Shown here piece by piece: positions 6,985 through 27,765 of a stretch of 64,000 nucleotides of DNA (positions are counted from its first letter, which is position 1; the number at the start of each line of letters is the position of its first letter). A program made the position numbers and the translations under genes. The DNA comes from Shinella sp. PSBB067. Lineage in GTDB: Bacteria > Pseudomonadota > Alphaproteobacteria > Rhizobiales > Rhizobiaceae. The stretch spans positions 2,976,001-3,040,000 of the forward strand of contig NZ_CP069303.1 in NCBI RefSeq assembly GCF_016839145.1, in the 5' to 3' direction. The notes under the pieces are model-generated. The model was given only the letters and a program-made list of their open reading frames with translations, searched no databases and was not told where the DNA came from.

Positions 6985-6996
6985 AGGAACATCGTC

Positions 6997-11059: not shown

Positions 11060-11077
11060 GTTTCCTCCTACTGGATG

Positions 11078-11480
11078 TCAAAGCCTGCGCCGGCGTGTCG
11101 GGAACAGTTCCCAGCCGGTGCGCGTGTGGATCAGCCCCCAGAGACCACCGGGGGCGAACAGCATGCCTGCGATGGCGACGGCGCCGAGAAGGACCAGATA
11201 GATCGGTCCGAATCCCGCCAGAAGCGCCCGCAGGACGAAGAAGACTATCGTGCCGACGAAAGGCCCTCCGATCTTGCCGCTGCCGCCGACGATGAAAGGC
11301 ACATAGGCCGTCCAGTCGAGCACGCTGAAGGCGGCGTCGGGGGTCATGTGCAGCTTCATGACGAAGATCGGCGCCCCGGGAAGCGCGGTCGCGAAACCGA
11401 CGCCGATCGCCTCGGCCCGCCGGTCCTCGTCAGTCCCCAAGCGCTCGCGCCGGATTGCAACGGTGCGCGCCGGGAGATTC
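11078..11480 (-). pseudogene. Truncated LivM-type branched-chain ABC permease
   Basis: The last ~90 codons are a good LivM C-terminus: MTPDAAFSVLDWTAYV, GGSGKIGGPFVGTIVFF and VAIAGMLFAPGGLWG. Upstream, only scraps remain (VAIRRER and EAIGVGFA, resembling the VAIRDN..AAEALGVN loop), then a jump straight to FVMKLHM. About 200 residues of membrane segments that should precede are absent, and no start codon with a ribosome site is visible. It ends 18 bp before the aldehyde dehydrogenase start. The usual Liv partners are absent from the window, so it is a deletion scar. Confidence 0.75.
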
Positions 11481-11567
11481 CCGTCAATGTCCTCGCCCTC
11501 ATGATCGTCCTCCCTACGAGGAGGCAACATTATGCGGCGGGGCGGAGGCCCGCTTTCACGTGCAGGT

Positions 11568-12455
11568 CTAAAGTTTTTGCCGTGGAGGCACAGGGCCGCC
11601 TTCCTGCCGCAGCCCGGTCGGCATCTTTCCGAAGTGCTGGCGGAACCGCCTGGCGAAATGCGCGCTGTTCTTGAAGCCCCAGCGGAAGGCGATCTCGGTG
11701 ATGCTCGCGCCTCGCTGCACCGGGCTGGCGAGATCGCGCGCGGCCTGTTCGAGACGCTCGACGAAGATGTATTCCATCGGCCCGATGCCGTGCAGTTCAA
11801 ACAGCTTGTTCAGCGTCCGGCGGGACATGCGCAGTCCGGCGGCGATGCCGTCGGGCGTAAGATCGGGGTCGTGAAGACGGGCCTGCGCCACCGCGCGGGC
11901 GCGGGCGAAATTGACGGCGGCCGTCCGCCCGTCGCTCGGCGCGGTCTCTGGACAGGCCTTGCTCGCGCCGGCGCAAAACAGGTCGATGACGTTCCCGATG
12001 GCGGTGGAGAGATCGTCCACCGACAGGCGCTGGATGCTGTTGGCGCTCTCGTCCAGCGCGGCGGCGGCGATCCGGCTGAGGGGCTCCCCGGGCGTAAGCT
12101 GAAAGCAGCCCGATTTTGCAATGTCCGCCAGTTGCGGCTGACCGAGGCATGGGGAACCCGGACGGCGATATGCTCGAACGGCTCGCCGAAGATGAGCCGG
12201 TGCGGAACGCTCGCGTCGTAGAAGAAGAAATCCCCGCCGGTGCGCCGGATGCAGGACGGGTCACGCGCCGCGACATGACCCTCGCAGGCTCGCCAGGCCG
12301 CATTCGCCGGTGGAGAAGACGGAGAAGGATCCGGTGAACGGCTCGTTGCGACCCGGCCGGCAGTCGATTTCCACGAGATTTTCCGCTACCGCCGCACGCC
12401 AGTTACCGATCCGATGAGGGACCTGCAGTCCGCTCGTATCGAATTCCCTGAGCAT
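11568..12455 (-). pseudogene. AraC-family activator broken by two frameshifts
   Basis: It starts well: GGGAGGATGGC before ATG at 12453-12455, then MLREFDTSGLQVPHRIGNWR, an AraC-binding-like (FeaR/XylS-type) N-terminus. The frame is lost near 12270-12290 and continues in another as IRRTGGDFFFYDASVPHR. It is lost again near 12110-12140 and resumes as SGCFQLTPGEPLSRIAAAAL through an intact C-terminal double HTH (GIAAGLRMSRRTLNKLF and SITEIAFRWGFKNSAHFARRF). With the frames joined it gives about 295 residues, normal for the family. It was probably the activator of the aryl-alcohol/aldehyde genes. Either a true pseudogene or sequencing error. Confidence 0.75.
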
Positions 12456-12500
12456 GCCATCCTCCCCATGACTGTTCCGGAATGCCGTTCTCCCTTCCGG

Positions 12501-12986
12501 CTAACGGACACCCGTCGTAGGGGCGCCGGCACCGGATCCGGGATCGTTCCCGTCCCCGCTCGCCGGAAGGCCGAGCATTCCGTTCAGCAGGGCGATGAGG
12601 CTCTGCCTCTCGCCTTCGCCGAGCTGGCCGAGAATATCGTCCTGAAGGGCGGCCACGACGGGCATGAGTTCGCCAAGAACCGCCTTGCCTGCAGGCGTCA
12701 GGGTCAGCATCCGCGCCCGCCGGTCCCTCGCGCTGATCGACCGCTTCACCAGCCCCTTGCTTTCCAGGCGATCCACGACACCGCCGATCGTCACGCGGTC
12801 ATAAGCGACCATGTCCGCGAGCACCGCCTGCCCGACGCCCGGATATTCGCCGATCACGCAAAGCGCGCCGAACTGGACAGGGGTGATATCGTGGCCCAGC
12901 GCGGCCATCCGCTCCGTGAAGAGCGCCGTCGATTGCTGGTGGGCTCGCCGGATCAGGTAACCCGGCATCGTAAGTATCGGTAGCAT
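12501..12986 (-). CDS. MarR-family regulator, likely of the gentisate operon
   Basis: 161 residues from the ATG at 12984-12986, chosen for AAGGCGCAGG just upstream and for length agreement with the related MarR at 24025. Upstream in-frame ATG and TTG starts exist. The core reads PGYLIRRAHQQS, DITPVQFGALCVI, VLADMVAYDRVTIGGVVDRLESKGLVKR, then the wing SARDRRARMLTLTPAG. The VAYDRVTIG recognition helix is shared with the 24025 protein (IAYDKATIG). A 17-bp palindromic site upstream (13052-13068) recurs before gtdA, so autoregulation plus control of gentisate breakdown is inferred. The ligand may be gentisate or a precursor. Confidence 0.88.
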   Translation of the reverse strand: MLPILTMPGYLIRRAHQQSTALFTERMAALGHDITPVQFGALCVIGEYPGVGQAVLADMVAYDRVTIGGVVDRLESKGLVKRSISARDRRARMLTLTPAGKAVLGELMPVVAALQDDILGQLGEGERQSLIALLNGMLGLPASGDGNDPGSGAGAPTTGVR

Positions 12987-13051
12987 CCTGCGCCTTGCTG
13001 TAAACTTCGGGGGAAGCATATGCTCGAAGCCGAAAATATGCAATTATGCTT

Positions 13052-13068
13052 ATGATATGTACACGCAT
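13052..13068. promoter_or_regulatory. Probable MarR operator, twin of the gentisate-promoter site
   Basis: ATGATATGTACACGCAT matches the site at 5302-5318 (ATGATACGTATACGTAT) at 14 of 17 positions; all three differences are C/T. It lies between the MarR gene and the divergent SnoaL-like gene, within an AT-rich stretch, and so could control both. Confidence 0.65.
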
Positions 13069-13223
13069 CATATTTCTTCGATGACCGCCATGCGGCCTGT
13101 CTCGTCCAGATCTGCCGAGGTTTCGAGGACGTGTCTCATGCAGCAACGATTTCGTTCCTGCTCGGACAAGACGCGGGCTCTTGGCTGAACAAGACTGGAT
13201 GCAGACACCAATGGAGGCCCACC

Positions 13224-13658
13224 ATGTCAGTCGTGACACAAACTATGACCGACGAGCAGCGCAAGTCGGTGGCGTTGGACTATCTGAAACGCCTGGATCG
13301 CGGAGATGACATCTTCGCGCTGTTCGCCCCTGACGCACAGGCGTATTTCCCCAAATTCGGTATTGCAAACGGTATCGATCAGATTCGCCGGCTGTTTGCT
13401 TCGACGGGCAAGATAATCGCATCGATCTCCCACGATTACGCATATTTCAACTACGTCATCCAGGGCGATATGGTCGTGGTTGAAGGCACCAGCTCGGGCT
13501 CCACAACGTCGGGCCGCACATGGCAAGCCGGGGTGACGCATGCCGGCCGCTGGTGCGATGTTTTCGAAATCAGTGATTTCAAGATACAGCGGTTGTTCAT
13601 CTATCTCGACCCGGACTACGGCGATGAGGATTTGGCGCGATATCCCTGGATCGAATGA
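13224..13658 (+). CDS. SnoaL/NTF2-like protein (copy 1)
   Basis: 144-residue NTF2-fold protein. It opens MTDEQRKSVALDYLKRLDRG after a short leader, followed by FALFAPDAQAYFPKFGIANG and the C-terminal WCDVFEISDFKIQRL with YLDPDYG. Proteins of this fold act as small isomerases, cyclases or hydratases in polyketide and steroid routes, or as binding proteins; the catalytic group cannot be assigned here. GGAGG sits before the ATG at 13224, which fixes the start. It is a clear paralog of the protein at 14696-15181. It is followed by a terminator and then an SDR gene on the same strand. Confidence 0.82.
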   Translation: MSVVTQTMTDEQRKSVALDYLKRLDRGDDIFALFAPDAQAYFPKFGIANGIDQIRRLFASTGKIIASISHDYAYFNYVIQGDMVVVEGTSSGSTTSGRTWQAGVTHAGRWCDVFEISDFKIQRLFIYLDPDYGDEDLARYPWIE

Positions 13659-13711
13659 TCTGCGCTCGCGGTCGGGCCGAAGAGGTTTCCGGCCATGTCG
13701 AACCAACGGGA

Positions 13712-13744
13712 GGCGGCATCCAGGCTTTGGGTGCCGCCCTTCTT
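13712..13744 (+). terminator. Probable intrinsic terminator after SnoaL copy 1
   Basis: GGCGGCATCC pairs with GGGTGCCGCC (one G-U pair) around a 7-base loop, followed by CTTCTTGT. The stem is strong and the T content moderate. It separates the SnoaL-like gene from the SDR gene 170 bp further on, so the SDR probably has its own promoter. Confidence 0.6.
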
Positions 13745-13916
13745 GTATTGAAGGGATGGCATGGTCCCGGCATCGGTTTGCCGGTGCCGGAGGACACGAA
13801 CGTTACCCCTTAACGTGCTCATTCATCCAAGTAATTCTGCTGCGCCAAGCAAGCCCCTCTCCGCCCGCTTCATAAGCTGGGAGCGCTGCGCTCAATGCAG
13901 CGCGAAAGGAGAGTCA

Positions 13917-14642
13917 ATGCCCAAGCTTGAAGGCAAGATAGCGATCGTGACCGGCGCTAGCCGAGGGATCGGAAGAGCGGTTTGCGATCGATTTTCCGAT
14001 GAAGGCGCAATCGTGGTCATGTGCGACCGGAACGAGCCGGATGCGGCGCTTTTGCACCGGCAGCATTTCCGGCGATTGGACGTTACGCAGCAGGACGATT
14101 GGCAAGCGCTCGCCCAGGAGGTTTCGTCGACTTTCGGTACGGCCCGCATCCTCGTCAACAATGCGGGTATCGTCGACTACGCGCCAATCATCGAAGTGAC
14201 GCCGGATGCCTGGAAGCGGATCATGTCCGTCAACGTCGACGGGGTTCTCTTCGGAATGCAGGCTTTCCTTCCGCAGATGATCGCGGCCGGCGGCGGGGCG
14301 ATTGTCAACGTGTCGTCGATCTGGGGCAGTGTCGCCGTTCCCGGAGCGGCGGCATATCACGCCAGCAAAGGGGCGGTCCGGACGCTGTCGAAGAATGCGG
14401 CAATGACCTATGCGCGGCAGGGCATTCGCGTGAATTCGATACACCCCGGCATTATCGCCACTCCCCACGTCGTCGATGTGCAGGAGCGCTCGATCACGGA
14501 CGCCGTCATAGCGAAGACGCCGATGGGACGGATGGCGGATCCAAGGGAACTGGCGAACGGGGTGCTGTTCCTGGCTTCCGACGAGTCGAGCTTCGTCACG
14601 GGGATCGAGCTCTACGTCGACGGCGGCTATACGGCACAATGA
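13917..14642 (+). CDS. SDR-family oxidoreductase (copy 1)
   Basis: 241 residues. TGASRGIG lies near the N-terminus, NNAG in the middle, then VNVSSIWGS, YHASK (catalytic Tyr and Lys) and DGGYTAQ at the end: a complete classical SDR. It ends in a domain typical of 3-oxoacyl-ACP-reductase or hydroxysteroid-dehydrogenase-like SDRs. AAAGGAGAG precedes the ATG at 13917. It is paralogous to the SDR at 21824, and both belong to the cluster around the sugar-type ABC importer. The substrate is unknown. Confidence 0.9.
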   Translation: MPKLEGKIAIVTGASRGIGRAVCDRFSDEGAIVVMCDRNEPDAALLHRQHFRRLDVTQQDDWQALAQEVSSTFGTARILVNNAGIVDYAPIIEVTPDAWKRIMSVNVDGVLFGMQAFLPQMIAAGGGAIVNVSSIWGSVAVPGAAAYHASKGAVRTLSKNAAMTYARQGIRVNSIHPGIIATPHVVDVQERSITDAVIAKTPMGRMADPRELANGVLFLASDESSFVTGIELYVDGGYTAQ

Positions 14643-14646
14643 AAAT

Positions 14647-14675
14647 GGCGCTGCCGGGTTTGCCCCGGCAGCGCC
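14647..14675. terminator. GC-rich stem-loop between converging genes
   Basis: A perfect 12-bp stem GGCGCTGCCGGG / CCCGGCAGCGCC with a 5-base loop begins four bases after the SDR stop. No T-tract follows, so it is either a weak bidirectional terminator or an mRNA 3'-end stabiliser for both converging genes. Confidence 0.6.
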
Positions 14676-14695
14676 ACGTGACCGTTGGATCGGGG

Positions 14696-15181
14696 CTATT
14701 TGCGATTGAGGATGCGCTTTCCGTCCGAGCCCAGCCACGGATAGCGCGCGGTGTCGGCGCCTTCGTAATCCGGATCGATGTAGATCGACAGGCGCTGGAT
14801 CTTGAAGTTTCTGATTTCGAAGACGTCGCACCAGTAACCCGCATGGCTGTCCGGCCCGGCGCGCCAGCTCACGCCGCCTTTCGTGGTGCCGGCCGTCGTG
14901 CCTTCGATGACGACCATGTCGCCCTGGACAAGGAAGTTGAAATGCACGTTGTGGTGTTCGATGCTTTCCAGGAGCCCACCGAGGTCCTTGAAAAGAAGTT
15001 CGATCTCCTCCGTGCCGCGGGCGAAGCCCCATTTGGGCAGGTAGACCTGCGCGTTCTTGTCGAAAAGCTCCATGTAGTCGTTGCTTCCGCGGTCCATGCG
15101 CAAAAGATATTCAAGGGCAACCGCCTTGCGCTGTTCGTCGGTCATCGGCTCCACACGGAAACCTGCTGATGTGTCGTTCAT
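14696..15181 (-). CDS. SnoaL/NTF2-like protein (copy 2)
   Basis: 161 residues. PMTDEQRKAVALEYLLRMDRG, ELFDKNAQVYLPKWGFARG, VQGDMVVIEGTTAGTT and WCDVFEIRNFKIQRLSIYIDPDY match copy 1 over nearly the whole length, with a longer N- and C-terminus. GGGAGGATTGAA precedes the ATG. It lies 14 bp downstream of the flavoprotein gene on the same strand, so the two are one transcript. That pairing suggests it binds or isomerises the substrate or product of the flavoprotein. Confidence 0.85.
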   Translation of the reverse strand: MNDTSAGFRVEPMTDEQRKAVALEYLLRMDRGSNDYMELFDKNAQVYLPKWGFARGTEEIELLFKDLGGLLESIEHHNVHFNFLVQGDMVVIEGTTAGTTKGGVSWRAGPDSHAGYWCDVFEIRNFKIQRLSIYIDPDYEGADTARYPWLGSDGKRILNRK

Positions 15182-15195
15182 TTCAATCCTCCCGA

Positions 15196-16893
15196 TTATT
15201 CGGCCGCCTGGGCGGCCGTTGAAAACGTTCTGACAGGCTGCGCATTCGCCGCGCCGGCTGCCCGGTAGGCGAATGCGAGGATCGGCCCCAGGGTCGCTCC
15301 GCCGGCCCAATAGGATCGGCCGGACGCGGAGGCCACGCAGTTGCCGACCCCGAAGAGGCCGGGGATCGGCATGCCGGTGTCGTCGAGAATGTGGCCGTCG
15401 ACCGTCGTCATCGGTCCGCCCTTGGTGTCGAGCGTCGCGCCGGTCATCAGGGTCGCATAGTAAGGCCCCGTATCGCTGATCGGATACATGGTCGGGTTGC
15501 TTCCGGCGTCGTCTCCGACCGGCCCGTTGAACTGCACTTCGATCTTTCGCTCGCCGCGTCTGAAGTCGTCGTCCTTGCCGGCTTCGGCGAACCGATTGAA
15601 ACGTTCGATCGTGGCGTCGAGGTTCTTCAAGAAGTCCTTGTCCAGGCTCAGGCCGCCGGTGAGCGCCTTGTGCTTTTCCAGCCTGTCGGCGATCGCGGTC
15701 TTCAGGCCTTCGAGGGTATCGGCCTTGATCACGTGCCGATCGTCCGTGCCTTCCGGAACGATGTAGCGGCCGTAGTCGACACTTGCGCAGTTCTTCTGGC
15801 TGTGCCGGTCCCAGATCGCGATCAGTGCGAGATTGGGATAGGAACTGGTCGCGCCGTCCCATTGAAAGAAGACCTGCGCCATTTCGTTATAGGCCAGTTT
15901 CTCGTTGGCGACGCGCTTGCCCGCCGTGTTGACCCATATCATCGAGTCCCCCGGAGAAGAGAACGTTCCGATCAGGCCGGGATTGTTATCCAGGATCCGC
16001 TCCAGCGGAGCAGGGCACATCCAGGCGTAATTCATGTTCCGGAGCTGCGCGCCGAGGCTTGTCGCGATGGGAATGAGGTCGCCCTCGTTCGATCGCGCCC
16101 CGCAGCCGGGAAAGACCGGCGCGTGCAGATAGTTGCGCCGGAAGGTGGTGTCGTGCGTGAAGCCTCCGGTGACGAAGATCACCGCCTTGCGGGCGCGAAT
16201 TCTTGTCGTTCCGCCCGGCGTCGACGCTTCGACGCCCACGATCTCGCCGTCCTCGCGACGAATGACGCGCTGGACGCGATGCGCGGTACGGATTTCCACA
16301 CCGTCGCGGACCGCAGCCGCGGACATCGTCTCGATGGCGACCTTGCCGCCGTCGGACATCGTCTCGTTGGCGCCGAGCGGAAGAAGAACGCGCCCCTTGG
16401 TGGCCTTGTTCTCCGGCAGTTCGGCCCAGTAGTCCACGACGTCGGGGCAATGCCGATACGGCAGGGCGTTTCGTTCCGCCAGCAGTTCCGCCGCGGGGGA
16501 GGCACTGTCGTAGATGGCCTCGAACGCCGCATATTCCCAATCGGTCATGCCGAATTTCGGGTCATCGGGATTGTAACCCTGAGGACGCGACAGTCTCGCC
16601 ATCAGGCGGATGGCGTCTTCCTTGGGGTCGGCAATGCCGAGCTCGCGCATGGGCCTGTTGTTCGGAACCCAGTACCAGAAGGCGGCCTTGCGTGCCGTGC
16701 CTCCGATCTCGTCCGCCTTCTCCAGAATCACCACGCTGTTGCCCAGCCAGCGGGAGAACAGCGCAGTCGGCAGTCCGCCGCCGCCTGCACCCACGACGAC
16801 CACGTCGTACTCGGATTGATACGGGCGTTCCGGGGGGCTCGGCCTGGCCGTCTCCCTTGGCCCGGCACTGCTGATTGGCTTGTTCACCGTCAT
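15196..16893 (-). CDS. FAD-dependent dehydrogenase/reductase (ketosteroid Delta1-dehydrogenase / fumarate-reductase superfamily)
   Basis: 565-residue flavoprotein. VVVVGAGGGGLPTALFSRWLG is the FAD-binding loop, VVILEKADEIGGTARKAAFWYW the characteristic second strand, and VFVTGGFTHD a mid-protein motif. PYYATLMTGATLDTKGGPMTTVDGHIL with the C-terminal GLFGVGNCVASASGRSYWAGG is a standard C-terminal signature of this superfamily. Members reduce or desaturate C-C bonds next to a carbonyl, including 3-oxosteroids and 2-enoates. No Tat or secretion signal is seen. GGAGGA precedes the ATG at 16891-16893. It is divergent from the ABC importer operon and paired with SnoaL copy 2. Confidence 0.85.
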   Translation of the reverse strand: MTVNKPISSAGPRETARPSPPERPYQSEYDVVVVGAGGGGLPTALFSRWLGNSVVILEKADEIGGTARKAAFWYWVPNNRPMRELGIADPKEDAIRLMARLSRPQGYNPDDPKFGMTDWEYAAFEAIYDSASPAAELLAERNALPYRHCPDVVDYWAELPENKATKGRVLLPLGANETMSDGGKVAIETMSAAAVRDGVEIRTAHRVQRVIRREDGEIVGVEASTPGGTTRIRARKAVIFVTGGFTHDTTFRRNYLHAPVFPGCGARSNEGDLIPIATSLGAQLRNMNYAWMCPAPLERILDNNPGLIGTFSSPGDSMIWVNTAGKRVANEKLAYNEMAQVFFQWDGATSSYPNLALIAIWDRHSQKNCASVDYGRYIVPEGTDDRHVIKADTLEGLKTAIADRLEKHKALTGGLSLDKDFLKNLDATIERFNRFAEAGKDDDFRRGERKIEVQFNGPVGDDAGSNPTMYPISDTGPYYATLMTGATLDTKGGPMTTVDGHILDDTGMPIPGLFGVGNCVASASGRSYWAGGATLGPILAFAYRAAGAANAQPVRTFSTAAQAAE

Positions 16894-17135
16894 TCCTCCT
16901 TCGTCTGCAAGACGAGCGAAGGATGTCGCAGCGGTCCGCAGGACTCTTGCCTGATCCGGAATAAAGTCTTGTTCGACCGAGCATTCGCGGACGGCGTCCT
17001 TGTGCTCTGCAAGCAATGAATTGGTTCTCTCACAGCAAAGCCGGCAGGACGATCAACCGGCACCATCCTCACCGTATCTGCACGCCTGCTTGGCCAGGGG
17101 CCGAGCTGCCTAATGATGTCTGGGAGGACATGATA

Positions 17136-18227
17136 ATGAGAGGAACTGCGCTAACATCGATGGTGGCTGTCGGTCTTGCCATGGCGCCGGGTGCGTTCGC
17201 GGCGGACGTGTCGCCGAAGAAGGTCGGCTCCGTCGACGAGCTTCAGGACATGAAGGATTTCTGCGGCACGAAGCCGATCCGGGTTGCTCTGTCCGACGGC
17301 AATGGCGGGAACTCCTGGCGCCGCATCACCCTTGCGGAGCTGCGCGACGAGGCGTCGAAATGCCCCAACATCACGGAAGTGAAGTACACCGACGGGCAGG
17401 GCAATCCGCAGAAGCAAATCGCCGACATCCAGGGCCTCGCCGCGCAGAAATACGACGTCATCGTCGTCAATCCGGATTCCGGCGAGGCGCTCATCCGCAC
17501 CATGCGCCAGGCGACGAAGGCCGGGTCGGCCGTCGTGCCCTTCACCGTGGGCGAAACCTTCGCCGGGGAGCCGGGTAAGGACTATCTGGCGGCCGTGACC
17601 GAAAGCGTCGTCAACGGTGGGAAGCTGAACGCGGAGTGGGTCGCAAAGCAGCTGAGCGGCAAGGGCAACGTGATCGTCTTCGGCGGCTCGCCGGGGAACA
17701 ACTTCACGAACACGCTGAAGGCCGCCTGGACCGAGGTCTGGGCGAAGTACCCCGGCATCAAGGTCCTCGAAGGGCCTATCGATACCAATTGGGATCCGGC
17801 ACAGTATCAGCAGATCATGGCAGGCCTGCTGGCCAAGTATCCGCAGATCGACGCGGTCTACAGCGACTACGGGACCGGCTCCGTCGGGGCGCTCAGAGCA
17901 TTCGTGGCCGCCGGCAGGAAGATTCCGGTCTGGTCGTCCGGCGACGCGAACGAGCTGGGTTGCTTCTGGAAGGACCATGTCGCCGACAACCCCGACTTCA
18001 AGCTCGCAACCTGGTCCTCCCGCACCTGGCTCTCGCGCCTTGCCCTGCGTAAGGGCGTGGCCGCGGCTGAGGGCATCGACAATGCCGAGCCCTCGATCCT
18101 GAACCTGCCGATGGAAGAAGACAGCACGGACCCGGCGCTGCAGCCCAAATGCGACGCGTCGCTTCCGCCGGATGCGATTCTCTCCTCCAAGCTCAGCAAG
18201 GAACAGTTGGCGGAACTCTTCAAGTGA
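17136..18227 (+). CDS. Periplasmic binding protein of a ribose-type (CUT2) ABC importer
   Basis: 363 residues. The N-terminus has a signal peptide (MRGTALTSMVAVGLAMAPGAFA, predicted cut before ADV). The body follows the RbsB-like fold: IRVALSDGNGGNSWRR at strand 1, IADIQGLAAQKYDVIVVNPDS, GKGNVIVFGGSPGNNFTN, and AVYSDYGTGSVGALRAF. The ATG at 17136 is preferred to the one six bases earlier because GGGAGG is then eight bases upstream. The usual RbsB size is about 290-300 residues; this one is longer with a C-terminal tail. It is first gene of the importer operon, followed by a stable stem-loop. The ligand may not be a sugar, given the neighbours. Confidence 0.85.
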   Translation: MRGTALTSMVAVGLAMAPGAFAADVSPKKVGSVDELQDMKDFCGTKPIRVALSDGNGGNSWRRITLAELRDEASKCPNITEVKYTDGQGNPQKQIADIQGLAAQKYDVIVVNPDSGEALIRTMRQATKAGSAVVPFTVGETFAGEPGKDYLAAVTESVVNGGKLNAEWVAKQLSGKGNVIVFGGSPGNNFTNTLKAAWTEVWAKYPGIKVLEGPIDTNWDPAQYQQIMAGLLAKYPQIDAVYSDYGTGSVGALRAFVAAGRKIPVWSSGDANELGCFWKDHVADNPDFKLATWSSRTWLSRLALRKGVAAAEGIDNAEPSILNLPMEEDSTDPALQPKCDASLPPDAILSSKLSKEQLAELFK

Positions 18228-18235
18228 GGGCTGAA

Positions 18236-18260
18236 GGGAGGCGGCGCCGAGCCGCCTCCC
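18236..18260 (+). promoter_or_regulatory. Intercistronic stem-loop after the binding-protein gene
   Basis: A perfect 10-bp stem GGGAGGCGGC / GCCGCCTCCC with a 5-base loop lies eight bases after the stop codon, without a T-tract. Hairpins in this position commonly stabilise the binding-protein mRNA or cause partial termination, so that the binding protein exceeds the permease. Confidence 0.6.
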
Positions 18261-18273
18261 CTTCCGGAGGACA

Positions 18274-19287
18274 ATGATCATGCTCACCAGATCCGCGTTA
18301 TCGCTCAAGACGCCGGAGGGGACCGGAATGCAGCGGAAAGTTCCGCAGTCCGCACAGATTATCGCGCTGACGGTACTGCTTATCGCCATCGGATCGCTCG
18401 TCGCGCCGGCGACCATCTCCACGACGGCCGTGCTGTCCATGCTGCCCTTCGCGGCAATTCTCGCACTCGCCTCATTGGGGCAACACCTGATTATCCAGCA
18501 GCGCGGGCTCGATCTTTCCGTGGCGGGCTGCATCTCGCTGATCGCCGTGCTCGTCACGATCGGGCCGGGTCCAGGCGCGGATGGCTGGTCCGTTCTGCTC
18601 TATGTGATCCTGAGCCTTTGTGCGGGATTGGCGATAGGAGCGGCAAACGGACTCGTCATCACATTCCTTCGGGTGCCGCCGCTTGTCACCACCATCGCCA
18701 TGAACTCGATCCTGATCGGCCTTGCGCTCGTGCTTTCCGGCGGAAGGCCGACAGCCGCCGATCAAAAGCTGGTCGCCGTCTCGTTCGGAGCGACCCTCGG
18801 AGCCCCGAATACGATCTGGATCCTTGCGTTGGCCGCCGCGGCCATGATCTTCATCATGTCTTCGACTGTCATCGGCCGACGCTTTATCGCCGTTGCGGTC
18901 AACGACCGGGCGGCCCATGCGATCGGTGTCAACGTTTCCCGCTACAGGATCGCAACCTACATGGTGGCGGGCCTCTGCTATGCAGTCGCGGCTATCGTGC
19001 TCGCGGGATATCTTAGCCTGCCGGGCATCTTCGTCGGCAACAGCTATATGCTGGCAACCGTCGCGGCATATGTCATCGCGGGCAACGACGTGGCCGGAGG
19101 CCGCCGGGGCAGTTTCCTTGCCACTGTGGTAGGAGCGCTTTTCCTCACCTATCTCGATCAGTTTCTGCTCGCGCTGAATTTCACGCGTTCGTCGCAGCTC
19201 ATCCTGCAGGCGGTCATCGTCCTGGCGGGCGTAGGCATTCCCGTCTTGATCAAGATGGCATCGGTAATGAAGGGGGCGGCACGATGA
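18274..19287 (+). CDS. ABC importer permease, ribose/xylose (RbsC) type
   Basis: 337 residues (two fewer if the second ATG at 18280, better spaced from GGAGG, is used). It has eight to ten hydrophobic segments and the family-typical QHLIIQQRGLDLSVAG near the second helix, plus GRRFIAVAVNDRAAHAIGVNVSRYR as the cytoplasmic coupling loop. It ends by overlapping the ATPase gene by four bases. The operon encodes a second permease domain fused to the ATPase, so the importer would have a heterodimeric membrane part. Confidence 0.9.
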   Translation: MIMLTRSALSLKTPEGTGMQRKVPQSAQIIALTVLLIAIGSLVAPATISTTAVLSMLPFAAILALASLGQHLIIQQRGLDLSVAGCISLIAVLVTIGPGPGADGWSVLLYVILSLCAGLAIGAANGLVITFLRVPPLVTTIAMNSILIGLALVLSGGRPTAADQKLVAVSFGATLGAPNTIWILALAAAAMIFIMSSTVIGRRFIAVAVNDRAAHAIGVNVSRYRIATYMVAGLCYAVAAIVLAGYLSLPGIFVGNSYMLATVAAYVIAGNDVAGGRRGSFLATVVGALFLTYLDQFLLALNFTRSSQLILQAVIVLAGVGIPVLIKMASVMKGAAR

Positions 19288-21806
19288 ACGGTCTCAACCT
19301 GGAAAAACGAAATGTCGCCAACGATGCTGCGCCGGTCTTGGCGCTCGAGGGCATCGAGAAATCCTATGGCGCCGTCCGTGCGCTCAGGGGTGTCGATCTT
19401 CAGCTCAAGCCAGGCGAGATCCATGCGATCGTCGGGGAGAACGGCGCCGGGAAATCGACGCTCATCGGAGTCGCGGCCGGTGTGGTGCAGGCGAATGCCG
19501 GCCGGATTCTCGTGAATGGCGCGGCAGTCTCCGAGCCCGATCCGCTCGCGATGCGAGACGCCGGGATTTCCGTGGTCTTCCAGCATCCGGCATTGGCACG
19601 AGATTTGACGGTCCTTGAGAATTTGCGGCTCGGAGTGAAATCGGACCGTCCCGTTCCGACCAAGGCTTCCGCACAGGCGCTGATCGACAGGGTTTCAAGC
19701 GATGCGCTGCGCGTCGGCGTCGATACGCGCGTAAGCGATCTGAACCTTGCGCAGATGCACGTGGTGGAAATCGCCCGCGCGCTTGTCTCCGAACCGTCTG
19801 TCGTCGTTTTCGACGAGCCGACCGAACCCTTCCAGCAAGCGGACGTCCAAAGGCTTTTCGACGTCATACGCCGACTGAAGGTGGAAAACGTCGCGATCGC
19901 CTACATCTCCCACCGGCTCCACGAAGTGATGGAGATCGCGGATTGCGTGACGGTCCTGCGAGACGGGGAAATGGTAGGGCACGACCGGGCCGGCGATCTT
20001 GATATCGACAAGGTGATCACGCTCATCGCCGGCCGGCCGCTGGATCAGATCTTCCCCGCGAAGGGCCGTTCGCCCGGGTCGGCCGTTCTGTCCGTCGCGG
20101 AACTGACCGGCAAGGGATTCGCGGGAATCAACATCGCCGTCCGATCGGGGGAAATCCTGGGATTGGCGGGCGTGGAAGGACAGGGACAGCGAGACTTCCT
20201 TCGCGCCCTGGCAGGTCTGAGCCGGCACGAGGGATCCGTTGTCGTCGACGGACGGCAGAGGCGCATCACTTCGCCTTCGGCCGCGCAGGAGGCCGGTATG
20301 GCCTTTCTTTCCGATGACCGGCACGGTGAGGGATTGTTCCTCGGGCTGGATATCCAGGAAAATATCGGCCTTCGGATCCTTGAGCGGATCTCGTCATGGG
20401 GTGTCGTCAGCAGCGTGTCTGAAGCCCGCGCGGCGAAGGATGCCACCAGCCGGCTTGCGGTGAAGGCGCCGTCGCTGGGCACGAGGATCGCCAACCTCTC
20501 AGGCGGAAACCAGCAGAAGGTGCTGTTTGCCCGTGAGACCTATGCCGGCGCGCGTGTCTATCTGATCGACGAGCCGACGAAGGGCGTGGATATCGGCTCG
20601 CGCTCCGAGATCTACCAGCAGATCCGGGCGCTGGCGAACGAAGGCGCCGCGGTGATTGTCCTGTCGTCGGACGGGGTCGAGCTGGAAGGCCTCTGCGATC
20701 GGGTCCTGGTGTTCGCGCGAGGGCAGGTCGTCGCCGAGTTGACCGGCGAGGCGGTGAACGATGACAGGATTACCGGCGCGTCGTTGACGGCGACGGTATT
20801 GCGGCGCGATGCGCAAGGGGGACCAGCGAGGACCAAGCACTCGTTCTTCCGCAGCGATTATTTTCCCATCCTGGTGCTTTGCGCGATGATCGCGCTCGTG
20901 GTCGGCATGACGGCGGCAGGCAACCCGTATTTCCTCGACGCGTCGAATGTCACCAACCTGCTGGTCCTCGTTTCGGTGCTCGCGATGGTGTCGTGCGCCC
21001 AGCTCGGCCCGATCCTCACCGGCGGCATCGATCTCTCCGTCGGGCCGATGGCCGGCTTCTCGCTGATACTGGCCTCGTTCTTTCTCGGCCCCGATATTCC
21101 GGCATCGTCCCTGATCGGATACTCGCTGATGATCCTGGCGATCGGCGGGGCTGTCGGCGTCGCGCAAGGAGCGTTGATCGCTTTCGCGGGTTTGCCGGCG
21201 ATCGTCGTCACCCTTGCGTCCTTCATCGGCCTGCAGGGCGTCTCGCTTATCCTGCGGCCGCAGCCGACGGGCGACATCACGGAGACGCTCGGCGAGTTGG
21301 CGTCCGCCAGTCTGTTCGGGCTGCCCGTCGCGTTCGCGTTCGCGGTCTCGATCGTCCTGCTTCTGGAGATCGCGCTCTTCAGGACATCGGCCGGCCGCAA
21401 GATCCGGGCAGTGGGGTCCGATCCGGACGCGGCGTTCAGGCTGGGTACCAGCAGGATCAAAAGCCAGCTCTCCGCCTACGGCGTTTCCGGGATGCTGGCG
21501 GCCCTCGCAGGACTTATCCTTGCCGGTCAGATCGGCTTGGGCTCCGCAAGCGTCGGAACGGACTACACCCTTCTGAGCGTGACGGTCGTCGTCCTTAGCG
21601 GAGCGAGCATTACGGGCGGCCGCGGCTCGTTCCTGTGCGTCCTTTTCAGCGCCCTGCTCGTCCAGTCGACGACCAGCGCATCCTCGTTCGTCCAGATCGA
21701 CCCGGCCTGGCAGTACGTCGTCGTCGGCGTCATCGCCATCGTGGCGGCGTCGCTGTTCGGCCTCTCGCGCGCAGGCGGCGCGCAAAATTCATCCAGTCAC
21801 GCATAG
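19284..21806 (+). CDS. Fused ABC ATPase (two nucleotide-binding domains) and permease
   Basis: 840 residues, where the ribose-type ATPase alone is about 500. Domain 1 (about 17-240) has Walker A GENGAGKST and Walker B VVVFDEPTE, but LNLAQ in place of the LSxxQ signature. Domain 2 (about 260-490) has a degenerate Walker A (GVEGQGQRDFLRALAG) but canonical LSGGNQQK and YLIDEPTKGVD. So one composite site is consensus and the other degenerate. Residues about 530-835 form an RbsC-like permease with GGIDLSVGPMAG and GRKIRAVGSDPDAAFRLG. The reading frame is continuous through the linker near 510-530. It works with the separate permease and binding protein upstream. Confidence 0.9.
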   Translation: MNGLNLEKRNVANDAAPVLALEGIEKSYGAVRALRGVDLQLKPGEIHAIVGENGAGKSTLIGVAAGVVQANAGRILVNGAAVSEPDPLAMRDAGISVVFQHPALARDLTVLENLRLGVKSDRPVPTKASAQALIDRVSSDALRVGVDTRVSDLNLAQMHVVEIARALVSEPSVVVFDEPTEPFQQADVQRLFDVIRRLKVENVAIAYISHRLHEVMEIADCVTVLRDGEMVGHDRAGDLDIDKVITLIAGRPLDQIFPAKGRSPGSAVLSVAELTGKGFAGINIAVRSGEILGLAGVEGQGQRDFLRALAGLSRHEGSVVVDGRQRRITSPSAAQEAGMAFLSDDRHGEGLFLGLDIQENIGLRILERISSWGVVSSVSEARAAKDATSRLAVKAPSLGTRIANLSGGNQQKVLFARETYAGARVYLIDEPTKGVDIGSRSEIYQQIRALANEGAAVIVLSSDGVELEGLCDRVLVFARGQVVAELTGEAVNDDRITGASLTATVLRRDAQGGPARTKHSFFRSDYFPILVLCAMIALVVGMTAAGNPYFLDASNVTNLLVLVSVLAMVSCAQLGPILTGGIDLSVGPMAGFSLILASFFLGPDIPASSLIGYSLMILAIGGAVGVAQGALIAFAGLPAIVVTLASFIGLQGVSLILRPQPTGDITETLGELASASLFGLPVAFAFAVSIVLLLEIALFRTSAGRKIRAVGSDPDAAFRLGTSRIKSQLSAYGVSGMLAALAGLILAGQIGLGSASVGTDYTLLSVTVVVLSGASITGGRGSFLCVLFSALLVQSTTSASSFVQIDPAWQYVVVGVIAIVAASLFGLSRAGGAQNSSSHA

Positions 21807-21823
21807 AAGCATGGGAGAAAACG

Positions 21824-22537
21824 ATGAGACTTGAAGGAAAGCGGGCAATCGTCACGGGATCCGCCGACGGGATAGGGCGAGCGATCGCTGACGGTCTGAG
21901 CCGCGAAGGTGCAAGGGTGGTTCTGATCGACGTCAAGGAGCCTGCAGGGCGGCTACTTGAAGGCCAGATCTTCGAGCGCATGGACATTTCCAACCCCGCC
22001 GATTGGCAGCGTGTCGTCGCTGACGCCGTAGAGCGATGGAGCGGCGTCGACGTTCTGGTGAACAACGCGGCCATCATCAATTATCAGTCCGTTCACGAGA
22101 TCGTTCTCGATGACTGGAACAGGTCGATCGCCGTCAACCAGACGGGTCCGATGCTCGGGATGCGGGAGGTCATTCCGGTCATGCAGAAACTCGGCGGCGG
22201 CTCCATCATCAATGTGACGTCGAGCTGGGCGCTCGTGGCGGCTCCGGGTGTCGCGGCCTACCATGCCACCAAGGGCGCGTTGCGGATGATGACGAGGAAT
22301 GCGGCCGTAACCTATGCCGGGGATCGCATCAGGGTGAATGCGATCGTGCCGGGAATCGTGCGCACGCCGCTGACCGACGCTCAACCGGACGTCACGGCCA
22401 GCGTGGTCGCGAAGACCCCGTTGGGCCTGTCCGAGCCGCACGAGATCGCGGCGGGTGCCGTATTCCTGGCCAGTGACGAATCCTCGGCGGTGACCGGCGC
22501 GGATTTCATGATGGACGGCGGATACACCGTTCAATGA
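21824..22537 (+). CDS. SDR-family oxidoreductase (copy 2)
   Basis: 237 residues. TGSADGIG cofactor loop, VLVNNAAIIN, NVTSSWALV, YHATK as the catalytic Tyr and Lys, and DGGYTVQ at the C-terminus. It closely resembles the SDR at 13917, including the unusual short segment ...PAG/DAA-RLL/ALL between beta-2 and alpha-3 and the shared ending. GGGAGAAAACG precedes the ATG. It follows the fused ABC gene by 17 bp, so the imported compound or a product is probably its substrate. Confidence 0.9.
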   Translation: MRLEGKRAIVTGSADGIGRAIADGLSREGARVVLIDVKEPAGRLLEGQIFERMDISNPADWQRVVADAVERWSGVDVLVNNAAIINYQSVHEIVLDDWNRSIAVNQTGPMLGMREVIPVMQKLGGGSIINVTSSWALVAAPGVAAYHATKGALRMMTRNAAVTYAGDRIRVNAIVPGIVRTPLTDAQPDVTASVVAKTPLGLSEPHEIAAGAVFLASDESSAVTGADFMMDGGYTVQ

Positions 22538-22541
22538 ATGA

Positions 22542-22576
22542 CTGAGGGGAAGCGCTTGAGGAGCGCTTCCCCTCAG
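22542..22576. terminator. Long perfect stem-loop between converging genes
   Basis: A 15-bp perfect stem CTGAGGGGAAGCGCT / AGCGCTTCCCCTCAG with a 5-base loop lies four bases after the SDR stop and overlaps the stop codon of the opposing AraC gene. It is a probable bidirectional terminator, with no long T-tract on either side. Confidence 0.75.
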
Positions 22577-23526
22577 TCCGCGTGGGCGTCGCGAACATCG
22601 CGGGCGGATCGCCCGTATCTGGACTTGAACGTCCGGCTGAAATGGGACAGGTCGTTGAAGCCATTCTCGAAAGCGATCTCGGTGATCCTTCGTCGACCGA
22701 GCCGCCTGTCCCTCAGTTGCTCGTGGCAACGCTCCAGCCTCTTCTCCAGAAGCAGTCTCCCGAAGCTCGTATTGATCGTCGACAGCAGCCGGTCGATATA
22801 GCGACGGGAGATGCCGACGTCAGCGGCGAGGTCGTTGCAGCAATAGCCAGGGTTCGCGCAGTTTGCATCCAGTGTTTTGAGGATGCGGGCGAGCAACTTG
22901 TCTTGGCTGTTGAGGCCAAGTGCCGTTCCCGGCACGCAGCTGTTGACCAACTGGTCTGCAAGCGTTTTTACCACGCTCTCGAATGCGGTGAGTGCGGCGT
23001 AGTCGCTGACCTCTTTTGCCGACATGACCGCCTCCAACATCCTGGACGCGAGATATCCGTCACCGTCTATCCCGTCGACAGGCTGTCCAACCAGTGCGGT
23101 CACAGCGCGATGCATCGCTATGATCCGTGACCTCGACGTGCGAAGTGCAAGGTGCTCGAAATCGTCTTCCATCTCCAGCATGTGGGGCCTGGTGCCATCG
23201 ATCAGGAAAAACGAGCCGGTCTTCACGCGGCCTTCGAAGTTGCCGTGCGAAATGAGAACGGAGCCCTTTTTGATGTATAGCAACAGCATGAAGTCGCTGT
23301 CGACTTGCTTCAACAGACGCATCGAACGGGTCGTCCGGTGCGCATCCCCCGAAAGCCGACAGAATGTCGCGTCATCAAAGGAGGCGTGCGTGAAGCTTCC
23401 CTCGAACTCAGGTCCCCCTCGTGCGAAATCGAGGTTGATAAGTTTTTCGCGAATGAGATGTCCCCAGTTGTTGAAGGACTTCAAGTACGTGGACGGCGGG
23501 CGAACCGCGTCAGGTATCATTACCAT
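22573..23526 (-). CDS. AraC-family transcriptional regulator
   Basis: 317 residues from the ATG at 23524-23526, which has GGGAGG seven bases upstream; longer in-frame starts are rejected. The N-terminal half is a cupin-like sensory domain (FMLLLYIKKGSVLISHGNFEGRV, GSFFLIDGTRPHM). The C-terminal half has two HTHs: CNDLAADVGISRRYIDRLLS and RITEIAFENGFNDLSHFSRTFKSRYG. It converges on the end of the ABC/SDR operon and is the obvious candidate regulator of the 13-23 kb cluster. The inducer is unknown. Confidence 0.9.
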   Translation of the reverse strand: MVMIPDAVRPPSTYLKSFNNWGHLIREKLINLDFARGGPEFEGSFTHASFDDATFCRLSGDAHRTTRSMRLLKQVDSDFMLLLYIKKGSVLISHGNFEGRVKTGSFFLIDGTRPHMLEMEDDFEHLALRTSRSRIIAMHRAVTALVGQPVDGIDGDGYLASRMLEAVMSAKEVSDYAALTAFESVVKTLADQLVNSCVPGTALGLNSQDKLLARILKTLDANCANPGYCCNDLAADVGISRRYIDRLLSTINTSFGRLLLEKRLERCHEQLRDRRLGRRRITEIAFENGFNDLSHFSRTFKSRYGRSARDVRDAHAD

Positions 23527-24024
23527 CTGTCTTCCTCCCAAGATCAGAAACGCCTCCACGTTCCCGTGCGCTCCATTCCAGTCAGGCAAAAGCCGAGCGA
23601 GAAGCAGATATAGCATACTGCAAGCACGCCGGGTAAATACGTCCGCCACCTGAATAAATACATGTTGATTCTAGATTAAACCAAGAGTATATTTAATTAT
23701 ACTTGGATTTTGGGCGATTTCCTAGGAATTGTTAATGTCTCAAGCCACTCGGTATCTTACGAAGCGTTTTGTGAAGTGTCAGGTAGCGATGCTGCCGAGC
23801 CGGATCGATGCCGTTCAAGTGCGTTTGGAATATCGCTCGTGTCCCTCGATTATCCACGGGCTGGCCGGTGCGGCGCTAATGGGTTCCATCGCGTTTTCCT
23901 CCCATTCCGATAATCGTAAGGACGCTTACTAATTAATGTGTATCCCCAGTAATTGATGACTGTCAAATGGAATTGCAACGGGCTACGTGATGAGACTTCT
24001 GCAGATGCTGCTGGGATGGGCTGA
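23527..24024. other. AT-rich divergent intergenic region
   Basis: 498 bp between the AraC and MarR genes, visibly more AT-rich than its surroundings around 23640-23800. It should hold both promoters and contains an inverted repeat at 23681-23706. A plus-strand open frame of about 65 codons near 23735-23932 (MSQATRYLTKRFVK...) has a weak AGGAA site but no recognisable family; I leave it uncalled. Confidence 0.5.
23681..23706. promoter_or_regulatory. AT-rich inverted repeat upstream of the AraC gene
   Basis: AGTATA-TTTAAT-TATACT is perfect and is extended by CCAA / TTGG with one bulged base. It is positioned about 155 bp upstream of the AraC start and 320 bp upstream of the MarR start. A regulator binding site is the likeliest reading. 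Confidence 0.45.
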
Positions 24025-24507
24025 ATGAGGCGGTATGAGTTCGACGACGACCTATACGACGCGCCGGGCCATCTGATCCGCCGTCTTCAGCAGGCTGCTG
24101 TCTCGATGTTTATGACGGAAACGGCATCGGCGGGACTTGACCTGACGCCGGTCCAGTTCGGCGCGCTGACCATGACAAAACATCATCCCGGCATAGACCA
24201 AGTCACGCTGGCCGGTCTTATCGCCTATGACAAGGCCACCATCGGCGAGGTGGTGTCGAGACTAATTGCCAAGGGTTTACTAACCCGCATCGTAAGCAGC
24301 GCCGATCGGCGCTCCCGTGAATTATATGTCACCGACGCGGGCTCACGTCAACTGACGAAAATGACCCCTGGAGTCTGGCGAGTTCAGCAGCAGCTCCTCG
24401 CGGCGCTGTCCGAATCGGAACAGGTCCAGTTCCTCGATCTCCTGAAAAAAGTAACGGAGAGCGTGAACGAAAGGAGCCGAGCTCCACTGCGTACGGCCGA
24501 TAGTTAG
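24025..24507 (+). CDS. MarR-family transcriptional regulator
   Basis: 160 residues. YDAPGHLIRRLQQAAVSMF, DLTPVQFGALTM, VTLAGLIAYDKATIGEVVSRLIAKGLLTR and the wing SSADRRSRELYVTDAGS give a complete MarR fold. It is closely related in design to the MarR at 12501-12986 (IAYDKATIG against VAYDRVTIG), so the DNA sites may be similar. Its own upstream region lacks an obvious copy of the 17-bp site. The neighbours are transposon fragments downstream, so its target is unclear. Confidence 0.88.
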   Translation: MRRYEFDDDLYDAPGHLIRRLQQAAVSMFMTETASAGLDLTPVQFGALTMTKHHPGIDQVTLAGLIAYDKATIGEVVSRLIAKGLLTRIVSSADRRSRELYVTDAGSRQLTKMTPGVWRVQQQLLAALSESEQVQFLDLLKKVTESVNERSRAPLRTADS

Positions 24508-24841: not shown

Positions 24842-25070
24842 ATGATGAGCGATCTTTTCTGGCTTTCGGACGCGGCATGGTCAGCCATTGAGCCGCATCT
24901 GCCGAAGAACCAGCCGGGGGCTCGACGCGTCGATGATCGGCGCGTCATTTCCGGCATTCTCCATGTGTTGAAAGCAGGCTGCCGCTGGCGCGACGTTCCG
25001 ATCGAATACGGCCCTGCCAAAACCATCTACAACATCTGCGGGAAAGCCACGACGATGGCCTCCTCGGCCG
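24842..25070 (+). mobile_element. IS5-family transposase, 5' fragment
   Basis: About 75 readable residues: MSDLFWLSDAAWSAIEPHLP, then RRVDDRRVISGILHVLKAG, CRWRDVPIEYGPAKTIYN. This is the standard N-terminal DUF4096-like part of IS5-group transposases (start at 24842, or 24845 for the second Met). After IYN the family resemblance fades, and the catalytic DDE domain is missing because unrelated transposase sequence on the opposite strand begins. No right-hand end was found; it is inactive. Confidence 0.8.
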
Positions 25071-25082
25071 GTTTCAGCACCC

Positions 25083-25257
25083 GTGCTCTTGGGAGACTTT
25101 GGCCCCATCGGTTCGGCGGCCGTCGTGGTCCTCTCGTGCCATCTGGCCACCGTCCTCGGATTCAGCGGGCGGCAATGGACCGAGTGTTTTCTTGCAAGGC
25201 CTGGATTTCGGCTCAAAGTCGCGGCTTCGTGCAGTCGCTGCCAAGGCACGTCCTCTG
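25083..25257 (-). mobile_element. IS481-like transposase N-terminal fragment
   Basis: On the minus strand AEIQALQENTRSIAAR is followed, after a one-base frame change, by LNPRTVARWHERTTTAAEPMGPKSPKST. This matches the N-terminal HTH region of IS481-type transposases (usual form: AARYGLNPKTVAKWRKRTTT..PMGPK.P.ST). The rve catalytic domain is absent. It directly abuts the IS5 fragment in opposite orientation, so one element inserted into or recombined with the other. Confidence 0.6.
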
Positions 25258-25407
25258 ACGAACAAGGATGAACACACCCGGGACGGGGAAGGCCCCTGGT
25301 GAAGGCGTCAATCATATAGGGGGAGAGCCTTGTCGGACGGCCGCCCCCCGATCTGGCCAGCCGGCATGCCGCCGCGCCGCTCTCCAAAGCACGGCTTGTT
25401 TTCAGCC

Positions 25408-27692: not shown

Positions 27693-27736
27693 GGCGCGAG
27701 GTCGAAATATCCGAAAATGGACCGGCTCATTGGATA

Positions 27737-27765
27737 AGCCTCGGACGCAACCGGCGTCCGAGGCT
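27737..27765. terminator. Stem-loop between converging MFS genes
   Basis: A perfect 12-bp stem AGCCTCGGACGC / GCGTCCGAGGCT with a 5-base loop lies 44 bp after the DHA2 stop and 46 bp before the opposing MFS stop. No T-tract on the plus side; it may serve both directions. Confidence 0.65.

Follow-up and report, generated by a model that had tools for sequence, protein, structure and literature searches.

A cyclohexanone dehydrogenase-type flavoprotein paired with SnoaL-like proteins in a putative catabolic cluster of Shinella sp. PSBB067

The stretch of DNA analyzed here (contig NZ_CP069303.1 of Shinella sp. PSBB067, positions 2,976,001 to 3,040,000; 64,000 nucleotides, hereafter the window) raises the question of which compound is served by a cluster of nine genes located between positions 13224 and 23526. 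They encode two SnoaL-like proteins (SnoaL1 and SnoaL2), two short-chain dehydrogenases (SDR1 and SDR2), a flavoprotein, an importer of the CUT2 type consisting of a binding protein, a permease and a fused ATPase-permease, and an AraC-type regulator. The gene order is SnoaL1-SDR1 (+ strand), flavoprotein-SnoaL2 (− strand), binding protein-permease-fused ATPase-permease-SDR2 (+ strand) and AraC (− strand). All nine genes are present where a preliminary description of this DNA had placed them, and were viewed there as a self-contained pathway for a carbonyl-bearing ring compound. The answer favored here, tentatively, is a cytosolic pathway by which an oxygenated cyclohexane would be converted to hydroquinone.

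The flavoprotein (565 amino acids; 15196 to 16893, − strand) was compared with the structures of the Protein Data Bank (PDB). It matches the cyclohexanone dehydrogenase (CDH) 8am3 with 708 bits, the best 3-ketosteroid dehydrogenase (KstD) with 144 bits and flavocytochrome c fumarate reductase with 58 bits. Over 531 residues, it is 59.5% identical to the CDH of Alicycliphilus denitrificans K601. For the K601 enzyme (PDB 8AM3), Y195, Y376, Y570 and G574 are given as catalytic, W113, F352 and L530 as residues of the pocket and C305 as located at the FAD, and an exchange of W113 to alanine admits the bulkier dihydrocoumarin (PMC10966990, partial text). All eight compared residues are kept in the window protein (Y155, Y335, Y528, G532, W73, F311, L488 and C264, respectively). 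None of the 82 aligned proteins has another residue at these positions, the count at L530, Y570 and G574 being 81 plus one gap. Judged by its sequence, the flavoprotein is of the cyclohexanone dehydrogenase kind (EC 1.3.99.14).

The designation steroid-type flavoprotein, used in the preliminary description, does not fit these scores and the eight kept CDH residues. Many relatives of the protein carry the database name '3-oxosteroid 1-dehydrogenase'. An assignment as KstD was rejected, since the cut-offs of the models were not reached (PRK12844, 238.5 versus 789 bits; PRK07843, 205.7 versus 788 bits). SDR, NTF2-fold and KstD-like families serve in steroid and terpenoid pathways, and the presence of all three in the cluster is what would speak for the degradation of such a compound. 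In view of the low KstD scores and the conservation of W113 in all 82 proteins, this is a very remote alternative. Polycyclic or sterol substrates are unlikely, as the flavoprotein is of the CDH kind and not a steroid dehydrogenase.

SnoaL2 (14696 to 15181, − strand) is the next gene 3′ of CDH and shares its strand. SnoaL1 (144 amino acids; 13224 to 13658, + strand) is a SnoaL_2/NTF2-like protein (PF12680, 40.9 bits) and homologous to the protein whose gene is found after CDH in other loci, whereas SnoaL2 is slightly under the Pfam cut-off (25.6 versus 27 bits). The two proteins are 56% identical to each other, and SDR1 (241 amino acids; 13917 to 14642, + strand; adh_short_C2, 220 bits) and SDR2 (237 amino acids; 21824 to 22537, + strand; adh_short_C2, 203 bits) are 49% identical, so that the matched paralogues reported earlier were recovered. 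SDR1 is in addition 50–59% identical to the SDR found directly 3′ of CDH-SnoaL in three other loci (L067, L009 and L014).

For the analysis of the CDH-SnoaL pair in other genomes, one genome per species was scanned. This resulted in 110 CDH relatives, the best 80 of which were used as loci. The set is rich in Caballeronia (16), Paraburkholderia (12), Pseudomonas (10) and Variovorax (10), and taxon groups were assigned by hand from the record titles. In 73 of the 80 loci, a SnoaL homologue starts at most 1.5 kb downstream of CDH on the same strand. Among the seven others, SnoaL lies 7 kb away in L041 and is missing in L029, L052, L057 and L072, while L073 and L077, counted among the loci without SnoaL, are cut by contig ends 66 and 1423 bases after CDH. 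When nine CDH genomes were searched as a whole, SnoaL was found in all nine, with 10 copies that all lie within the CDH loci. The pairs occur in Pseudomonas, Caballeronia, Variovorax, Labrys, Pseudonocardia and others. The CDH-SnoaL module is recurrent and a largely unexplored catabolic unit for a carbonyl-bearing ring, which supports the earlier view of the genes as such a unit. No description of the pair was found in the literature searched, most subscription papers being outside its scope, and nothing was found there on CDH with hydroquinone, cyclitol with hydroquinone or cyclohexanediol with hydroquinone.

SnoaL1 is 45–64% identical to the 40 other sequences of a 41-sequence alignment (A2), one of which is SnoaL2. 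The alignment contains 23 invariant columns, the charged ones being D25, K44, H70, D82, E87 and R123, and these look catalytic. In the SnoaL tree, SnoaL1 and SnoaL2 are not sisters, at weak support (0.85). A search of the PDB with the SnoaL profile (E 0.1) matched five sequences, all of them weak NTF2-like and designed-protein matches, and neither scytalone dehydratase nor ketosteroid isomerase is among the five. A SnoaL-like domain fused to a monooxygenase has been described (PMC10028610, partial text). On a Caballeronia plasmid, the SnoaL gene is annotated as 'nuclear transport factor 2 family protein'.

SnoaL could also act after ring cleavage, on hydroxymuconic semialdehyde or maleylacetate as a tautomerase or isomerase, or be a non-catalytic binder, with CDH alone carrying out the ring chemistry. 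SnoaL is indeed found near maleylacetate reductase even where CDH is missing: the SnoaL locus L163, which has no CDH, contains a hydroquinone dioxygenase of the PcpA type (4huz, 252 bits) and a maleylacetate reductase, and farther on SnoaL occurs with DUF1329, DUF1302, MMPL and YCF48-type genes. This explanation is nevertheless quite improbable given that no ring-cleavage genes were recognized beside SnoaL in the window, in the Pseudomonas loci L017 and L024 or in L158, and that the 23 invariant columns, charged ones included, look catalytic. In L158 (3409 to 8157), SnoaL is near a monooxygenase of the cyclohexanone monooxygenase (CHMO) type (498 bits), an Abhydrolase_3 protein and an SDR, and no CDH was found in this genome at E 1e-60. 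As a side observation, YCF48, MMPL, DUF1302 and DUF1329 genes recur beside SnoaL (L041, L154 and others), mostly without a nearby CDH. These genes, named by search on single copies and by eye on the rest, may form a system that takes up hydrophobic ring compounds.

The importer of the window has the components of the CUT2 type, namely a periplasmic binding protein (17136 to 18227, + strand; Peripla_BP_4, 132.7 bits), a permease (18280 to 19287, + strand; BPD_transp_2, 92 bits) and a double ABC ATPase. Unlike in the CUT2 sugar importer, ATPase and permease are here fused in one protein (840 amino acids; 19284 to 21806, + strand; two ABC_tran stretches and BPD_transp_2 at 556–821). None of the three proteins reached the cut-off of a named sugar-transporter equivalog among the NCBIfam models shown, and the PDB relatives of the binding protein (best 84 bits) give no ligand. 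Kinase, sugar isomerase and aldolase families are absent among the nine cluster genes according to Pfam, as had been described. The family of CUT2-type binding proteins has 61 matches in the home genome (54 above the cut-off), so that a nearby sugar importer alone means little.

The same fused importer, however, adjoins CDH in six of the 80 loci (L003, L004, L006, L008, L026 and L044). Importer, CDH and SnoaL are also together in L117, and L113 contains the binding protein, the fusion and the first part of CDH at a contig end. The co-occurrence of the gene set elsewhere, proposed earlier as a check, was thus found in six other loci and L117. Among 385 sampled genomes of the class, the fused ATPase-permease (E 1e-135) was found in at least two genomes, the home genome and that of L113, both with CDH adjoining; the count is a lower bound, with two candidates scored per genome. 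Fusions of this kind are not unusual among database proteins (relatives at 52–54% identity), so that closer relatives exist beyond the loci compared here. The alphaproteobacterial CDH loci L007, L009, L012 and L014 are without this importer, and the two Labrys loci among them (L009 and L014) contain Liv genes instead. The importer locus L044 harbors an intradiol dioxygenase, Liv genes and, by eye, ORFs (open reading frames) similar to CoA-transferase and thiolase; the names of CoA-transferase, thiolase and molybdenum (Mo) dehydrogenase subunits used here are based on the first residues, judged by eye.

Genes of a possible lower pathway were counted in the 80 CDH loci by ORF clustering and a crude ORF caller based on the GC content of third codon positions (GC3), combined with tblastn. 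A PnpCD-type dioxygenase was found in 34 loci, maleylacetate reductase in 47, an intradiol dioxygenase in 46 and an HbpA-like hydroxylase in 15. At least one of the four is present in 59 of the 80 loci and in 18 of 25 taxon groups (54 loci when the hydroxylase is not counted). PnpD matches the Pfam family PF18191 (hydroquinone dioxygenase large subunit) with 295 bits, and for PnpC no family was matched. The maleylacetate reductase and the intradiol enzyme are 62% and 51% identical, respectively, to annotated Caballeronia genes, and the hydroxylase is named after HbpA on the basis of its relative in the home genome, described below. On the Caballeronia plasmid the order is transporter, FAD oxidoreductase, cytochrome c, NTF2 protein, two genes named hydroxyquinol 1,2-dioxygenase, aldehyde dehydrogenase (ALDH), maleylacetate reductase and intradiol dioxygenase. 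The name hydroxyquinol dioxygenase for the intradiol enzyme was derived from its neighbors, the nearest NCBIfam models being chlorocatechol/catechol dioxygenases below cut-off. PnpCD and the HbpA-like hydroxylase were never found in one locus (0 of 80), as would be expected for two exits from hydroquinone. Hydroquinone would be the simplest intermediate common to these exits and to that with the PcpA-type hydroquinone dioxygenase in L163.

All 27 loci with cytochrome c have a CDH with a twin-arginine (RR) leader, and 14 of the 15 hydroxylase loci have a CDH without it. The overall number of RR leaders (44 of 80) is based on a motif search, which misses L057 and probably L069. In the window flavoprotein, no twin-arginine leader was seen by eye. 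These data are read as two editions of CDH, an exported and a cytosolic one, of which the window would contain the cytosolic. It is possible, though we would sooner doubt than affirm it, that CDH and SnoaL constitute an undescribed, widespread aromatizing module, in which oxygenated cyclohexanones or cyclitols would become hydroquinone through a desaturase together with a dehydratase or tautomerase of the NTF2 fold. Its exported edition would be marked by the RR leader, PnpCD and often cytochrome c, its cytosolic edition by importer, SDR and ring hydroxylase.

In the home genome, four matches to intradiol dioxygenase and two good matches to maleylacetate reductase were found. One end of contig C3 (L111, 4928 to 13374) contains an intradiol dioxygenase, an HbpA-like hydroxylase (633 bits to HbpA, the 2-hydroxybiphenyl 3-monooxygenase), Liv-type genes and a maleylacetate reductase. 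This set is colinear with genes beside CDH-SnoaL-SDR in Labrys L014, with 57% identity for the dioxygenase and 74–80% for the rest. The Labrys arrangement shows that CDH-SnoaL and a C3-type set can be joined, not that they are joined here. The cluster is probably not a self-contained pathway, as had been assumed: in 59 of the 80 relatives genes for ring hydroxylation or cleavage are near CDH, and here they are elsewhere in the genome.

In the probably transferred, cytosolic pathway proposed for the cluster, the CUT2 importer would take up a cyclohexane that carries oxygen functions (a cyclic diol, polyol or hydroxyketone). One or both SDRs would oxidize a ring alcohol to the ketone, and the cytosolic CDH-type flavoprotein would remove hydrogen next to the carbonyl (α,β-desaturation). 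SnoaL1 and SnoaL2 would carry out an acid-base step leading to hydroquinone, most likely the loss of water from a β-hydroxyketone or a keto-enol tautomerization. The lower pathway would be encoded elsewhere, for example as hydroxylation to hydroxyquinol, intradiol cleavage and maleylacetate reductase. As a matter of arithmetic only, the oxidation level of hydroquinone would be attained from cyclohexane-1,4-diol if the SDRs acted twice and CDH once, and from the 1,2,4-triol by a single SDR step, the loss of one water molecule and a single CDH step. The data show the CDH kinship with its kept residues, the close CDH-SnoaL linkage, its recurrence with this importer and lower-pathway genes in the home genome. 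The substrate, the order of the steps, the hydroquinone intermediate, the chemistry of SnoaL and the service by any particular lower-pathway set are inferred, and the pathway as a whole is given a little less than an even chance.

A number of observations weigh against this pathway. Five loci count among those with lower-pathway genes through the hydroxylase alone (L010, L034, L041, L048 and L064), and in L010 it occurs with a glyoxalase-fold (extradiol) dioxygenase and an FAA hydrolase, perhaps as another ring-cleavage route. None of the lower-pathway genes was found in the available DNA of 21 of the 80 CDH loci, including five of the six importer loci, of which L006 and L026 are short contigs (7 and 10 kb). 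The exclusion of PnpCD and hydroxylase has a P value of 8e-5 by locus and of only 0.08 by taxon group. The Caballeronia record names the PnpC/PnpD-like genes hydroxyquinol 1,2-dioxygenase; they match the PnpC and PnpD sets at 50% and 78%, and the hydroquinone type was assigned against the name in the record because PnpD carries PF18191. For the home genome, resorcinol instead of hydroquinone would fit as well. The C3 set was found in 119 plasmid records, 58 of them from Rhizobium, compared with 11 records and none from Rhizobium for CDH in the same plasmid collection. The C3 set hence works without CDH in most of its holders and its link to the cluster is weak; a specific link of the two had looked promising and was weakened by the many Rhizobium plasmids with the set.

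Further points of this kind concern SnoaL, which was found (E 1e-20) in 40 of 349 genomes of the family of a Paraburkholderia. Among the 30 best-scoring SnoaL loci, CDH is present within 1.5 kb in 20 (in L145 with only 83 CDH residues at the edge of the locus) and absent in 10; as the genome of L083 was chosen for its CDH, the unselected count is 19 of 29. Of the 10 genomes without an adjoining CDH, six gave no CDH match at E 1e-60, two contain no more than a 38% relative, and the remaining two have CDH elsewhere, beside another copy of SnoaL. A strict dependence between CDH and SnoaL is ruled out by SnoaL in genomes without CDH. Conversely, L052, L057 and L072 have CDH and an intradiol dioxygenase and no SnoaL. 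In the genome of K601, no SnoaL match was found at E 0.01 and no match to maleylacetate reductase at E 1e-20, and K601 is described as a degrader of cyclohexanol via 1,3-cyclohexanedione (PMC3692508, partial text). Because of K601 without SnoaL, SnoaL without CDH, CDH-intradiol loci without SnoaL, loci bare of lower-pathway genes and the common C3 set, less confidence is placed in a single fixed role of SnoaL and in the aromatic exit.

The bare importer loci and the C3 set, which is not specific to CDH bacteria, speak for an oxidation of the inositol or polyol type with no aromatic stage. Importer, SDRs and SnoaL would then act on a cyclitol, the enone formed by the flavoprotein would be opened by enzymes encoded elsewhere, and the CUT2 importer would fit a polyol, which the preliminary description had considered next to a glycosylated compound. 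This is rather unlikely, since the hydrophobic pocket residues of the cyclohexanone enzyme are kept and one importer locus, L044, combines an intradiol dioxygenase with Liv genes and the CoA-transferase- and thiolase-like ORFs.

The cluster could also encode an aerobic route of the K601 type, in which cyclohexanol is oxidized to cyclohexanone by an SDR and to 2-cyclohexenone by CDH, hydrated to 3-hydroxycyclohexanone by SnoaL as the enone hydratase and oxidized to 1,3-cyclohexanedione by the second SDR. The CDH kinship, the two SDRs and the position of SnoaL after CDH fit this order; the SDR located 4.5 kb from CDH in K601 is 43% identical to SDR1, and it has been doubted that the Mo enzyme of K601 is a hydratase (PMC4052635, partial text). 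However, the K601 genome gave no SnoaL match, for which reason SnoaL was rejected as the missing K601 hydratase, and no dione-cleaving hydrolase is among the cluster genes. SnoaL also occurs in genomes without CDH, the neighboring genes favor hydroquinone over a 1,3-dione, and the hydration may be spontaneous (PMC4052635, partial text). The K601-type route is therefore considered unlikely. The Mo-dehydrogenase genes of K601 are reported to lie near CDH (PMC3692508, partial text), and Mo-enzyme genes were seen by eye near CDH in the K601 region (L096), where a CoxG-like ORF (by eye) lies between CDH and the Mo-enzyme genes (10047 to 16416). It is conceivable that a Mo hydroxylase puts water-derived oxygen straight on the enone, which would make a hydratase unnecessary. 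No match to the importer was found in the 20 kb around the K601 CDH.

The origin of the proposed pathway in Shinella was addressed by base composition and distribution. The GC3 is 0.76 for 11 genes of the block and 0.86 for 31 other genes hand-picked from the ORF list of the window (Mann-Whitney P 2.6e-5). CDH had no match at E 1e-100 in 60 relatives (1 of 61 counting the home genome). For the 20 of these that belong to the genus, a search at E 1e-120 was likewise negative (1 of 21 with the home genome). In the order, it was found in four of 397 genomes (E 1e-150; three candidates scored per genome). The lower GC3 and the absence of CDH from relatives suggest that the cluster was probably acquired by transfer from another bacterium. 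A fragment of an IS4/5-family transposase (DUF4096) is located at 24842 to 25258, to the right of the second MarR gene described below.

The block ends with the AraC-type regulator (22573 to 23526, − strand), whose nearest named model is FeaR, below cut-off. Two MarR-family regulators that were absent from the preliminary description flank the block on both sides and are 44% identical to each other. The first (12501 to 13043, − strand; Pfam MarR, 41 bits) has its start perhaps at 12968 and is divergent from SnoaL1; the second is located at 24025 to 24507 (+ strand; MarR_2, 38 bits). Terminator-like inverted repeats were found 3′ of SnoaL1 (13712 to 13738; 11-base arms, one mismatch) and between the convergent SDR2 and AraC genes (22546 to 22572; 12-base arms, one mismatch). 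Apart from these hairpins and one palindrome, no shared operator could be called in the intergenic regions of the block. The near-perfect palindrome AGTATATTTAATTATACT at 23686 to 23703, between AraC and the second MarR gene, is a possible regulator site. A short ORF at 11568 to 12020 comprises an AraC-type helix-turn-helix only, without a sensor domain, and is perhaps a truncated gene. About 5 kb to the left of the cluster, a gentisate-type cluster (5348 to 8339) contains a gentisate 1,2-dioxygenase-like cupin (268 bits, below the model cut-off), an MDMPI_N protein, an FAA hydrolase and a maleylacetoacetate isomerase above its model cut-off. As gentisate is a carboxy-hydroquinone, a link of this cluster to the CDH block is conceivable. 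The stretch from 27018 to 29675 was assigned to no family.

If the proposed pathway is true, many soil bacteria would possess a route from alicyclic ring compounds to hydroquinone, some of them would use cyclitol-like compounds in this way, and enzymes for the desaturation and aromatization of ring ketones would be at hand. The module offers a likely setting for the flavoproteins often named '3-oxosteroid 1-dehydrogenase' and for the SnoaL family named just 'nuclear transport factor 2 family protein'. The module is also relevant to a question left in PMC4052635 (partial text), namely whether an enzyme adds water to cyclohexenones or removes it, and which one this would be.

Compared with the K601 CDH, the window protein shares 60% identity, the eight residues and an SDR within 5 kb. 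The K601 gene encodes an RR-type leader (by eye) and lies beside Mo-dehydrogenase genes; the window cluster has neither, no Mo-dehydrogenase genes being found among its genes with Pfam. In the aromatization of cyclohexanecarboxylate to 4-hydroxybenzoate, a ring ketone is desaturated to the phenol after an alcohol dehydrogenase step. The window flavoprotein reaches only 200.6 and 146.6 bits with the models of its desaturases ChcC1 and ChcC2 (NF053676 and NF053677; cut-offs 1000 and 900), a comparison based on NCBIfam. A literature search for the 4-oxocyclohexanecarboxylate pathway gave nothing relevant.

The degradation of para-nitrophenol has a hydroquinone branch, PnpCDEFG. Genes similar to PnpC and PnpD and those for ALDH, maleylacetate reductase and intradiol dioxygenase are near CDH-SnoaL in 34 beta- and gammaproteobacterial loci, not all in each, so that the lower part alone is shared, and this outside the window. 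Scytalone dehydratase and ketosteroid isomerase act on ring ketones. With these enzymes, which the SnoaL profile did not match, SnoaL shares the broad class of the NTF2 fold, in which both are included (PMC3924330, partial text). The CHMO pathway has an SDR acting on the ring alcohol in common with the cluster, and a CHMO-type enzyme is found in the SnoaL locus L158. The window cluster instead has a desaturase and no Baeyer-Villiger enzyme.

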